DNA of 36,928 nucleotides from contig JACQVB010000173.1 in the NCBI GenBank assembly GCA_016209985.1, forward strand, positions 1 through 36,928. The letters run 5' to 3'. Source of the stretch: Gemmatimonadota bacterium (GTDB taxonomy: Bacteria; Gemmatimonadota; Gemmatimonadetes; Gemmatimonadales; GWC2-71-9). Below are positions 30,615-36,415 of the stretch, piece after piece. A model generated the notes under the pieces. The model was not told the origin of the DNA. It searched no databases and saw only the letters and a program-made list of their open reading frames with translations. Every line of letters starts with the position of its first letter. Position 1 is the stretch's first letter. The position numbers and the translations under genes were made by a program.

Positions 30615-30870
30615 TGCGAGATGCCACGACGATCGAGAGTCACCACCTGTATCGGGTGGTGGGAACCCGCATCCGGGAGCTGAGGCAAGAGAGGGGCTGG
30701 TCGCAACTAGAGCTGTCCATCTTCACCGGCCTGACGCAGTGTACCATCAGTCTCCTGGAAAGCGGACGCCAGAAACGGGTGCGATGGGCGACGCTGGAGA
30801 AGCTGGCCGGCGGGTTAGCGCATCATCGGACCGCCGGGCTCCACCATCTGCCGCTGCCTTCGGACCCTAG
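30611..30870 (+). pseudogene. XRE-family HTH gene, probably frameshifted
   Basis: The ATG at 30611 overlaps the stop of the propeller gene. Residues of about 13-65 are an XRE helix-turn-helix (VGTRIRELRQERGWSQLELS, then GLTQCTISLLESG and TLEKLAGGL). After LAGGL the frame loses coding character and would run on to 31135 across the opposite strand's genes. A one-base change in the GCGGG run near 30810 would instead give LAGG-VSASSD and end at a TAG at 30868-30870, exactly back to back with the stop of the convergent gene. Either an inactivating frameshift or a base-call error would explain it. The HTH itself looks intact. Confidence 0.6.
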
Positions 30871-31187
30871 CGATGCGGGTCCACTCGGCGGGGCTCCGGC
30901 TCCCGAGCCAGCAGCCGTTCGACGAAGTCCACGCGCTCCTGCGCCTCGTTCAGCTCCTGCCGCAGCGCGCTCACCTCGACTTCGAGCGCTTCGAGCCCAG
31001 CCTGGAGCTCGCTCCCCCCGCGGTTCTGCCGGAGGCGTTGGGCCCATACCGCGAACGCCACAGCGAGGGCCGCGTGAATCGTGGCATGCCACGGCTCGGC
31101 TGGTTGGGCCGCGAACCAGACCGCGCCAACGTTGATGACACTCAGCACGACGGAGATCGGGTACCAAATCGCCGGCTTGAAGGTCAT
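30867..31187 (-). CDS. Small membrane/coiled-coil protein A
   Basis: A 106-residue protein starting at an ATG (31187) that overlaps the upstream gene's TGA as ATGA, so translation is coupled. Two membrane helices (WYPISVVLSVINVGAVWFAA and ATIHAALAVAFAVWAQRL) are followed by a coiled coil (about 63-100) ending in EAQERVDFVERLLAREPEPR. The end of the coil, Q-ER-DF-ERLLA, is shared with the upstream gene, so the two are partners or paralogues. The layout recalls PspB-like small membrane proteins, but I do not claim homology. It may be a cassette gene, see the attC-like site at 31537. Confidence 0.75.
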   Translation of the reverse strand: MTFKPAIWYPISVVLSVINVGAVWFAAQPAEPWHATIHAALAVAFAVWAQRLRQNRGGSELQAGLEALEVEVSALRQELNEAQERVDFVERLLAREPEPRRVDPHR

Positions 31188-31477
31188 GGTGAACACTTTT
31201 CCCCAGGGCCCAACGCTGAGCGATCTCGGCCTTGGGCCAATAGTCGCTCGGCAAAGTCGAGGCGCTCCTGAAGCTCTGCGAGCTGAGTTGACTGACTGGC
31301 CAAGCTGGTCTGGACGTCTTCCAGCGCGGCGGCCTGCTGCGCCAATCGCTCCCTGAGCTGGTCCAGCTCGGATCGCGAGGCTCCGCGCCCGGCTATTGCC
31401 CCGGCTATTGCTTTCGCAACCAGTACTGCCGTGGTGGCGGCGATCGCGAGAGCTAGCAGGAAGACAGGCTCACTCAT
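31184..31477 (-). CDS. Small membrane/coiled-coil protein B
   Basis: A 97-residue protein from the ATG at 31477. It has one N-terminal membrane helix (MSEPVFLLALAIAATTAVLV) and then a long coiled coil with heptads of Leu/Ala/Gln (SELDQLRERLAQQAAALEDV, LASQSTQLAELQERLDFAER). It ends in LLAQGRDRSALGPGEKCSP. The QERLDFAERLLAQ block is near-identical to one in the downstream gene, with which it overlaps by 4 bp. The two probably form a hetero-oligomer at the membrane. The gene begins 60 bp from an attC-like core (GTTAGGC on its strand), as a gene cassette would. Confidence 0.75.
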   Translation of the reverse strand: MSEPVFLLALAIAATTAVLVAKAIAGAIAGRGASRSELDQLRERLAQQAAALEDVQTSLASQSTQLAELQERLDFAERLLAQGRDRSALGPGEKCSP

Positions 31478-31536
31478 GGTCGGCGATGTCTCCAGAGTCG
31501 CAGGACATTCGTCTCTCGGCTCACCGCAGCGAGGCG

Positions 31537-31596
31537 GCCTAACGACCCGCGCTTCACCCGCGGGCGACTCGCTGGCGGGCAGCGCGATGTTCAAAC
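31537..31596 (-). other. Degenerate attC-like recombination site
   Basis: GCCTAAC at 31537-31543 fits the RYYYAAC core. The inner part folds as GCGCT/AGCGC, CCCGC/GCGGG and GCGA/TCGC stems with unpaired bases between, like an attC. The far core reads GTTCAAA (31589-31595) instead of GTTRRRY, so this end is mutated. Its order of blocks matches the better site at 32797. I assign it to the minus strand because the genes to its left read that way. Confidence 0.55.
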
Positions 31597-31693
31597 GTGC
31601 AGTGATGCACGCGGGCGCGCAAATGAACCGGTTCCTTCCGCAGCGTACGGCGCCCGCCGGGTGCCAGCGCTGGGTAGACTGGCCCTTCTTCTA

Positions 31694-31711
31694 GTAGCAC
31701 GATTGTGCTAC
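31694..31711. promoter_or_regulatory. Palindromic operator of the AbrB-Doc module
   Basis: GTAGCAC-GATT-GTGCTAC is a perfect 7-bp inverted repeat centred about 45 bp upstream of the antitoxin start. TACATT at its right edge could be a -10 element. Type II antitoxins usually repress their own promoter through such palindromes, and AbrB-fold dimers bind inverted sites, so autoregulation is likely. Confidence 0.65.
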
Positions 31712-31746
31712 ATTGCAGGGTACCAAGACCTAACCGAGAGGCAGCG

Positions 31747-31974
31747 ATGGTTCGTGAAGTGAAGCTCCGCCAGGCCGGGGGGTCCGTGGGGGCAACCCTC
31801 CCCAAAGACATGGCGGATCGCCTCAACCTCAGCGTCGGCGACCGGGTGCTCGCGGTAGAGACGGAGCACGGGATCTTGCTCAGTCCATACGATCCGGTGG
31901 TCGAGAAGGCCCTCGTCATTGCGGCGAGGACCGCCAAGAAGTACCGCAACGCCCTCAGGCAGCTAGCTAAGTAG
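31747..31974 (+). CDS. AbrB/MazE-fold antitoxin
   Basis: A 75-residue protein from the ATG at 31747. Residues of about 3-47 are an AbrB/SpoVT swapped-hairpin DNA-binding domain: VREVKLRQAGGSVGATLPKD, MADRLNLSVGDRVLAVETE, GILLSPYD. The C-terminal helix (VVEKALVIAARTAKKYRNAL) would bind and neutralise the toxin. It is followed after 3 bp by a Doc-type toxin gene. The classical partner of Doc is Phd, which has a different fold, so this is a hybrid module; such AbrB-Doc pairs are known in databases. A palindromic site lies just upstream. Confidence 0.88.
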   Translation: MVREVKLRQAGGSVGATLPKDMADRLNLSVGDRVLAVETEHGILLSPYDPVVEKALVIAARTAKKYRNALRQLAK

Positions 31975-31977
31975 CGG

Positions 31978-32385
31978 GTGCGCGAGCCGCGATGGCTCGA
32001 GCGCCTCGTCGTGGATGCCGTGCATTGGGATCAGATCCGAGAGCACGGTGGGCTGGCTGGGGTGCGGGATGAGACGGCGCTCGAGTCTGCCCTGGCCCGC
32101 CCCCGTCACAAGTGGCACTACCAGGAAACAATCGAGCTAACGACACTCGCGGCCGCCTACGGGTTCGGCTTGTGTCGTAACCATCCGTATCGCGACGGCA
32201 ACAAGCGGGTGGCCTTCGTCGTGATGGTGGTCTTCCTGGAACTCAACGGCCTGTCCTTGAGGGCAGAGGAGGCCGAAGTTGTGACGGTGATGCTCTCCTT
32301 GGCTGACGGTAGGTTATCGGAGAAAGAACTCGGCACCTGGCTTCAGGAGGACGTGACGAAAGCCAAAGGTCGTGGGGCAGTCTAA
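31978..32385 (+). CDS. doc: Doc-type (Fic-fold) toxin
   Basis: A 135-residue Fic-fold protein starting with GTG at 31978, 3 bp after the antitoxin stop. The active-site loop is HPYRDGNKR (His69 to Arg77). The Lys in GNK in place of the Gly of GNG is the Doc mark: Doc phosphorylates EF-Tu rather than adding AMP. Other Doc blocks: LERLVVDAVHWDQIREHGGL, VRDETALESALARPRHKWHY and ELTTLAAAYGFGLCRNHPYR. The length is normal for Doc and all key residues are present, so the toxin should be active. A MITE-like element begins 3 bp after its stop codon. Confidence 0.92.
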   Translation: MREPRWLERLVVDAVHWDQIREHGGLAGVRDETALESALARPRHKWHYQETIELTTLAAAYGFGLCRNHPYRDGNKRVAFVVMVVFLELNGLSLRAEEAEVVTVMLSLADGRLSEKELGTWLQEDVTKAKGRGAV

Positions 32386-32388
32386 GCG

Positions 32389-32529
32389 GAGCCTGTGTGA
32401 AAACCCCCGTCGTTTTGTCGCCTCCAAGAATTCCGATGCTCACGTTTCGCTCAGGACTGACGATCTCGCCCCGGGGAGAGGTCGGAGGCCCCCCTCTGTG
32501 TCCACATTCGGGGGTTTTCACACAGGCTC
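32389..32529. mobile_element. MITE-like element with 21-bp perfect terminal inverted repeats
   Basis: The 21-bp arms at 32389-32409 and 32509-32529 are perfect inverted repeats (inner ends AAAACCCCCG and CGGGGGTTTT). The flanks show a 4-bp direct repeat AGCG (32385-32388 and 32530-32533), as expected for a target-site duplication. The 141-bp body has no gene. It looks like a non-autonomous element mobilised by an IS transposase of unknown family. It could also act as the terminator of the doc operon. Confidence 0.75.
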
Positions 32530-32549
32530 AGCGCGTGTTAGGCCGCGGT

Positions 32550-32780
32550 CTATTGCGGATCCGTCGGGTCACCGAACACGGCGGCGAGCCAAGGCGGCAG
32601 CCGGTTGGTGTAGGCATATATGATAATTCTCGCTCCAAAAACGGCGGCAATCACGCCTCCCACGATGCCGCGCAGCTGCGATCCGCCGGCGAGGCGTGCC
32701 CCGGACCAGATGCCAAGAACGCCCCCGGCAACCAACAACGCGCCAAGCAAAGCGAGGAGAACCCGGTAGCGAAGGGGCAT
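32550..32780 (-). CDS. Small two-helix membrane protein
   Basis: A 76-residue protein from the ATG at 32780. Two membrane helices fill most of it (YRVLLALLGALLVAGGVLGI and LRGIVGGVIAAVFGARIIIY), followed by YTNRLPPWLAAVFGDPTDPQ. No family recognised. On its own strand it starts 17 bp after a perfect GTTAGGC attC core (32797-32803), and another core (GCCTAAC on its strand, 32537-32543) lies just after its stop. So this is exactly the size and layout of a single-gene integron cassette. Confidence 0.65.
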   Translation of the reverse strand: MPLRYRVLLALLGALLVAGGVLGIWSGARLAGGSQLRGIVGGVIAAVFGARIIIYAYTNRLPPWLAAVFGDPTDPQ

Positions 32781-32796: not shown

Positions 32797-32862
32797 GCCT
32801 AACGATCCGCCGATCACCTGCGAGCCGCGTCGCGGCTCGTCAGGTGCATCGGCATGTTGGGC
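32797..32862 (-). other. Integron-type attC recombination site
   Basis: The 66-bp site has GCCTAAC at 32797-32803 and GTTGGGC at 32856-32862 as outer cores (RYYYAAC/GTTRRRY). Between them are nested inverted repeats: GCCGAT/ATCGGC, CACCTG/CAGGTG and CGAGCCGCG/CGCGGCTCG, interrupted on one side by single unpaired bases (T, C). Unpaired extra bases in an imperfect palindrome are what integron integrases recognise. The fold is good enough to call from sequence; no integrase gene is in the window. Confidence 0.82.
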
Positions 32863-35704: not shown

Positions 35705-35911
35705 TCACGGGGCGGGAAAGCGCTCCAGCACCCATGCGATCATCTGATCCCAGACGCCGGTCGCGAACGGTTCCGTTCTGAGCGCCTCTCGCGGAGAGGT
35801 CGCGGCTTCGAGCTCGTGGTCCGCCTCGACCCCGCGGCCGCCGCACAAATAAATGTCTTCCTTGTATCGCGCGCCCGCCAGCTGCAAACGCTTGTTAGGG
35901 CTCACGCGCAA
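35705..35911 (-). CDS. Doubtful ORF beginning inside an attC-like half-site
   Basis: The first residues (VSPNKRLQLAGARYKEDIYL) translate the sequence CCCTAACAAGCGTTTGCAGC, a RYYYAAC core followed by an AAGCGTTTGC stem half as in many attC sites. Such PNKRLQL starts usually mark read-through of attC, not a protein. The remainder (TEPFATGVWDQMIAWVLERF) may be the tail of a lost gene. Low confidence that it is expressed. Confidence 0.3.
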   Translation of the reverse strand: MRVSPNKRLQLAGARYKEDIYLCGGRGVEADHELEAATSPREALRTEPFATGVWDQMIAWVLERFPAP

Positions 35912-36200
35912 AGCGCCTCCAGTGTTTCGGGTCTCGGCTAGTGTGGATTACGGCCCGAATCGACACAAGCTCGGTCGATAGCGAATAGTACACGGCGTAT
36001 GGGAAGTGATCTACAAGGACGCGGCGCAACTTCCTGTAGACCTCCGGCCCGGCCTCTGGCGCCTGTTTGAGCAATTCGAAGGTGGTATCGAGCTCATCCA
36101 GAAGCTGCTCGCCGAGTCCCGAACGTTGTGCTTCATACCATGAAAAAGCCTCCGCGATATGGGCGGAGGCTTCGGCTCGGATGTCCAGGCGGTAGCTCAC
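35895..36200 (-). CDS. RelE/ParE-superfamily toxin
   Basis: A 101-residue protein overlapping its antitoxin gene by 4 bp (36197-36200). It has the ParE/RelE fold pattern: YRLDIRAEASAHIAEAFSWY, ERSGLGEQLLDELDTTFELL-type helices, then VYRKLRRVLVDHFPYAVYYS, LVSIRAVIHTSRDPKHWRRF. The final HTSRDPKHWRRR-like block is typical of the ParE-like branch that pairs with TIGR02574-type antitoxins. ParE members poison gyrase and RelE members cut mRNA; which applies here cannot be decided. The module lies directly after attC-type cores, a common place for stabilising toxin-antitoxin cassettes. Confidence 0.88.
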   Translation of the reverse strand: MSYRLDIRAEASAHIAEAFSWYEAQRSGLGEQLLDELDTTFELLKQAPEAGPEVYRKLRRVLVDHFPYAVYYSLSTELVSIRAVIHTSRDPKHWRRFAREP

Positions 36201-36415
36201 CGTGATTTGCGGAGCTTACGCTGTACTTCCTCCCACGTCTGAGGTGGCTCGGGGGAGGGATTGTCTAGGATATGATCGAGTTCAGCCTTGTGCCAGTCGG
36301 AAACAGGAACTGACTCTGGACTTGGCGTGAGACTATCCCAAACCTCGCTAATCAAGTCGAGGCGCTCATCCGGCGGCAGCTTGAGAATCTCTTCGAGAAG
36401 AGCTTTCGGAGTCAT
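36197..36415 (-). CDS. Addiction-module antitoxin (TIGR02574-like)
   Basis: A 72-residue protein. The pattern ALLEEILKLPPDERLDLISE, VWDSLTPSPESVPVSDWHKA, ELDHILDNP and then WEEVQRKLRKSR is that of the addiction-module component encoded upstream of ParE/RelE-type toxins. It is mostly helical and would wrap the toxin. It starts 17 bp from a GTTAGGC core on its own strand (36432-36438), so the gene sits at the very beginning of a cassette. Confidence 0.88.
   Translation of the reverse strand: MTPKALLEEILKLPPDERLDLISEVWDSLTPSPESVPVSDWHKAELDHILDNPSPEPPQTWEEVQRKLRKSR

Follow-up and report, generated by a model that had tools for sequence, protein, structure and literature searches.

The window, i.e. 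the whole stretch of DNA analysed here, comprises positions 1 to 36,928 of contig JACQVB010000173.1 from a Gemmatimonadota bacterium (GenBank assembly GCA_016209985.1, 4.64 Mb in 289 contigs). Between the doc toxin gene and a convergent open reading frame (ORF) of 76 amino acids lies a 141-bp palindrome, which is a non-autonomous transposon of the IS1182-family type, that is, a miniature inverted-repeat transposable element (MITE). It belongs to a family whose copies sit almost exclusively at a single precise position within attC, the integron cassette sites, and it adjoins the remains of such a site, attC2. The locus is made up of the following features (TSD, target-site duplication).

31978 to 32385, plus strand: doc toxin (DOC_P1 / Fic)
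32380 to 32385, minus strand: TTAGAC abutting the left TSD and overlapping its last T, read from the sequence as a possible R' remnant or start of the toxin-antitoxin cassette
32385 to 32388, no strand: left copy of the TSD, AGCG, its A being the final base of the doc stop codon TAA
32389 to 32529, minus strand (that of the attC orientation): type A MITE, 141 bp, with 21-bp perfect terminal inverted repeats (TIRs) and no transposase gene
32530 to 32533, no strand: right copy of the TSD, AGCG
32537 to 32543, minus strand: R'' box GCCTAAC of the interrupted attC2, set off from the TSD by a 3-bp spacer (32534-32536)
32550 to 32780, minus strand: 76-amino-acid ORF without a Pfam match, its 3' end meeting attC2

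The element begins with GAGCCTGTGTGAAAACCCCCG at 32389, and the exact reverse complement of GAGCCTGTGTGAAAACCCCCG finishes at 32529 with AGCG on either side, confirming the 141-bp MITE, its 21-bp perfect ends, and its AGCG duplication as described in a first-pass annotation of this DNA. It is short, lacks a transposase gene, has TIRs and a TSD, and occurs in several dispersed copies. As a single strand it folds with -34.2 kcal/mol, compared to a shuffled mean of -20.4 (z -4.7). The right AGCG is followed by GTGTTAGGC, which on the minus strand reads as the R'' box GCCTAAC at 32543-32537. The same annotation had proposed insertion into an attC-type site, and this is strongly supported.

A DNA search of the host genome yielded four other full copies, about 78-90% identical to the focal element, and a search by end sequence added two partial copies, at C79 and C262; the suggested check for second copies was thus positive. 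All of them adjoin GTTAG/CTAAC, and the four full copies are all in the attC register. The insertion had been called recent: the perfect ends and the duplication stand in favour of this, but the focal element differs by about 10% or more from each of the other copies in its genome. Related MITEs were found in Gemmatimonadota, Verrucomicrobia, and one Chloroflexi metagenome-assembled genome (MAG). Elements with the same ends measure 91 bp (type B) or about 140 bp (type A) in relatives and 149 bp in Verrucomicrobia. Two identical copies of the 149-bp MITE occur within one Limisphaerales genome and the 91-bp copies in genome G096 are mostly 96-98% alike, indicating recent activity in those genomes. 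The 141-bp element had no match in plasmid and phage collections.

The abutting GTTAG/CTAAC core would also be expected if the palindrome were simply part of a long attC, like the Vibrio repeats, moving only with its cassette, and at the focal site the palindrome does form a hairpin between partly complementary R boxes. To avoid circularity, insertion sites were assessed on a flank-blind set of 25 distinct copies retrieved by element sequence alone. CTAAC lies exactly 7 bp from one end in 22 of these 25 (0.03 expected), the geometry of the focal site; one further copy has GTAAC and another fits after a one-base shift. The remaining copy, L190 (G410:C13:16129), is a 138-bp MITE with the same ends in a non-attC, structure-like target, the 4-nt loop of a GCGCCG-TTCA-CGGCGC stem, the loop being duplicated. 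Outside attC hairpins lies also L179/L092 (G096:C102:11538), where a 91-bp MITE interrupts coding-like sequence near its start, between CTAACGCC and CGCC, with CTAAC present. The TSDs differ between sites (AGCG, GCCG, TTTG, CCCA, CGCA, GGGT, TCGC, and others), and in most copies the left and right repeats are identical. Among 395 genomes of the phylum, the pattern CTAAC-N7-TIR matched 29 times and a reversed control not once. Across GTDB the pattern gave 51 loci, mostly in Verrucomicrobia and Gemmatimonadota, with about 7 expected by chance on a uniform-composition estimate; in viral contigs it gave none. One viral contig (L066, IMG/VR, reverse strand 8240) carries an element with similar ends; it is roughly 170-200 bp long, has GGTG as its duplication, and does not lie at an attC R'' box.

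The occupied sites were identified as attC by removing the element. Deletion in silico of the element and one duplication restores canonical attC hairpins (e.g. at L086, with a fold of -49.4 compared to -22.9 on average for shuffled sequence). In the 15 clearest cases, and at an empty site, the target has the R'' and R' boxes and a hairpin with extrahelical bases; in these 15 cases the insertion lies between R'' and L'', in the arm with the extrahelical bases. The consensus from 31 sites is GCCTAAC-N3-[N4]-TGNAGCTGAC; CTAAC was in the search pattern for most of these sites, so the flank-blind count is the unbiased figure. The empty sites that the first-pass annotation had asked for do exist: attC G096:C233:113 carries the exact 23-bp target CTAACTAGCGCTTGAACCTGTCG, which is occupied by a 91-bp MITE in L086 and L088 and by an unrelated 141-bp MITE in L027. 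In L025 and L096, homologous attCs hold one and the same MITE inserted in opposite directions, and occupied and empty sites are mixed in the arrays G096:C78 and G432:C38 (G432 is labelled Novosphingobium and may include a mis-binned contig). The empty attC, the two unrelated MITEs at one spot, and the opposite orientations show that site-specific transposition has recurred. A long attC is at odds with the restored hairpins, the empty sites, the unrelated 91- and 141-bp sequences at one position, the variable direct 4-bp repeats, the insertions outside attC (L179, L190), and the transposases encoded by elements with matching ends; we consider it highly improbable. No more credible is a transcription terminator or other structured RNA serving the convergent doc and 76-amino-acid ORF genes. 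The position and the strongly palindromic sequence would suit such a role, but copies are dispersed with TSDs, empty sites exist, and the sequence also occurs between many other, unrelated genes. Both readings were rejected on the empty sites, the varied TSDs, and the autonomous relatives described below; a secondary terminator role is compatible with a transposon.

Full-length elements indicate the probable source of mobility. At attC sites, autonomous elements with matching ends, of 1668 bp (L128, Dadabacteria MAG, with a 490-amino-acid ORF) and 1680 bp (L098, Pedosphaera MAG) encode IS1182 transposases that match NF033551 IS1182 at 405-440 bits (cut-off 270). Further copies in Verrucomicrobia show attC-like flanks, and the core GAGNCYGTGTGAAAAC is common to the MITE ends and the autonomous copies. 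The proposed search for a transposase between such ends was thus successful in other genomes, L128 and L098 both carrying one, whereas the window's own assembly yielded only a remnant, an IS1182 C-terminal fragment with the insertion sequence (IS) end at CTAACCCGCGCT as boundary (junction CTAACCCGCGCT/GAGGTCGTGTGAAAAC). No autonomous element with ends identical to those of the MITE was found in the window's genome. A transposase search of 298 Gemmatimonadota genomes at E 1e-60 gave no match and is uninformative, given a distant query and a strict threshold. At L132, a 456-aa ORF considered as an autonomous transposase proved not to be one; that locus holds a 120-bp MITE-like copy.

Judging from these sequences, the MITE very probably owes its mobility to an IS1182-family DDE transposase that acts in trans and belongs to an attC-specialised lineage. 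The family inserts in either orientation between the R'' and L'' boxes of an attC, at a point 3 bp inward of the conserved CTAAC, and duplicates 4 bp there; the transposase may recognise a bipartite duplex motif, CTAAC-N3-(4-bp target)-TGNAGCNGAC. Several observations weigh against this account. L098 lacks a matching TSD and that of L128 matches at 3 of 4 bases, while the TSD mismatches in L003 and L004 require recombination or decay. The 289 contigs of the window's assembly contain no intact transposase with these ends, and the sole related remnant has ends unlike those of the MITE. The attC-sited transposases occupy one part of the IS1182 tree, which is not a proven single clade. Finally, the duplex motif draws on few non-attC insertions, namely L179/L092 with CTAAC and L190 in an inverted-repeat loop.

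The last of these, together with the position of the insertions in the arm with extrahelical bases, would also fit a transposase that recognises the folded attC, as cruciform or single strand, instead of the duplex sequence. IS1272, a member of the IS1182 family, targets inverted repeats (PMC5678879), and L190 lies in the loop of its GCGCCG/CGGCGC stem. On the other hand, the clean duplication of 4 bp implies that a duplex was cut in staggered fashion, the L179 insertion between CTAACGCC and CGCC is in hairpin-free, coding-like sequence, the focal flanks are without a hairpin, and IS1272 yields no TSD. Recognition of the folded site is therefore possible but doubtful.

Known IS1182 elements provide a comparison. 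ISPa7 and ISPmo1 have similar ends ([CG]AG..YGTGT(G/A)AAAAC) and a 4-bp TSD, and the Pedosphaera (L098) transposase shares about 49-50% identity with plasmid copies of the ISPa7/ISPmo1 type. The proteobacterial relatives differ in their target: ISPa7/ISPmo1-type elements on plasmids and related viral-contig elements insert, mostly with 4-bp duplications, at GTCCGCT-N3-GRCC-N3-AGCNGMC palindromes, whereas the attC lineage uses R''/L''. In the individual ISPa7/ISPmo1-like flanks (L204, L215, L219, L201, L202, L213, and others), a GRCC-type 4-bp duplication was seen at the centre of GTCCGCT-N10-AGCGGAC-like palindromes. The right half-site N3-AGCNGMC is common to both targets; an exchange of the left half-site may thus have given rise to attC targeting. 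IS1272 differs from the attC-sited lineage in that it is reported to replace inverted repeats without a TSD (PMC5678879).

Two other kinds of mobile element are known at attC. The IS1111-attC group (ISKpn4, ISPst6) comprises insertion sequences targeting one end of cassette attC sites (PMC11187229); these have a seekRNA-guided DEDD transposase, subterminal inverted repeats, and no TSD, in contrast to the DDE IS1182 transposases, true terminal repeats, and 4-bp TSD found here, which place the present elements outside that group. Group IIC-attC introns also insert at attC sites (PMC7923331), but are retroelements acting on the folded bottom strand, with neither terminal repeats nor a TSD; the elements described here are 91-149 bp with TIRs and TSDs, have autonomous versions encoding DDE transposases, and do not belong to these introns. 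They resemble MITEs in being short, gene-less, and multicopy with terminal repeats like those of full-length IS, and differ from them in a near-absolute site specificity for attC. An attC-homing IS1182/MITE family would add a third kind to the mobile elements that home to the cassette sites of integrons and, of those found here, would be the first to combine a classical DDE transposase with terminal repeats and a target duplication. In open-licence literature, we found no published link of IS1182 or MITEs to attC targeting beyond incidental mentions, an absence that is weak evidence. A transposon selectively occupying attC would offer a natural route to freezing cassettes in arrays, and it opens to test how a change in one half-site redirects an IS family to a new target. 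Occupied attC sites are likely to be missed, which is a warning for attC annotation tools.

The consequences for the doc cassette depend on the array around it, which contains three more features.

31537 to 31607 (approximate), minus strand: attC3, with a degenerate R'' and the R' box GTTAGGC, expected to serve the toxin-antitoxin cassette
31705 to 31974, plus strand: AbrB/MazE-type antitoxin, the partner of doc (TIGR02609 doc_partner)
32797 to 32862, minus strand: attC1, complete (GCCCAAC ... GTTAGGC), its hairpin carrying extrahelical bases on the L'' side, score 19 compared to a shuffled maximum of 14

The folds of attC1 (-25.8 compared to a shuffled mean of -13.5, z -4.9) and attC3 (-22.3 compared to -13.9, z -3.7) exceed those of shuffled sequence. 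With the MITE removed, the focal flanks form no hairpin (-7.4 compared to a shuffled mean of -8.5); of a complete attC, only R'' and the possible TTAGAC are left. Both attC1 and attC3 are on the minus strand, so the R'' beside the MITE belongs after the minus-strand ORF 32780-32550, and attC2 is most likely part of the cassette of this ORF. The doc pair (31705-32385, plus strand) forms a reversed cassette, for which attC3 would be the attC of its own; the earlier claim that the site split by the MITE was that of the doc cassette is not supported. The MITE thus sits in a degenerate, dead or half attC, most likely that of the 76-amino-acid ORF cassette, beside the reversed toxin-antitoxin cassette.

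In general, an insertion that parts R'' from the rest of the hairpin would be expected to impair IntI recombination and to stabilise the neighbouring cassette. It had been proposed that the toxin-antitoxin pair was locked in place in this way, the MITE itself breaking the attC of the doc cassette. The element does lie at the border of that cassette, whose excision would need the interrupted attC2, so the pair may have been locked in. However, the interrupted attC runs in the direction of the minus-strand ORF cassette, and removing the MITE does not bring back a hairpin; loss of the site may thus predate the insertion or have occurred independently of it. Breakage by the MITE is therefore unlikely; cassette mobility at the attC2 border has likely been lost, perhaps for reasons other than the MITE. 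A more speculative proposal, which we hold to be quite improbable, places an attC-specialised IS1182 lineage in several phyla whose MITEs would not always inactivate the site but would fold out as hairpins beside L'', such that some occupied cassettes stay mobile and the MITE rides on both cassettes and transposase; at the focal site, the stem that attC has lost between GTCTAA and TTAGGC would be replaced by that of the MITE.

The host genome contains a fragment of an integron integrase (L261, G000:C68:2-421, minus strand); it comprises the N-terminal 140 amino acids, is ended by the contig edge, and matches TIGR02249 at 113 bits. A tyrosine recombinase on C191 was not accepted as intI, since IS91-like genes adjoin it. 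Another toxin-antitoxin pair, made up of a ParE toxin and a TIGR02574 antitoxin, lies in the window at 35895-36415 on the minus strand, directly followed at 35900 by an attC-like R''/L'' start; a matching R' was not found. The small minus-strand ORFs 30867-31196 and 31184-31594 adjoin attC3 and have similar coiled-coil-like C-termini (LQERLDFAERLLAQ and AQERVDFVERLLAR), and are probably related cassettes.
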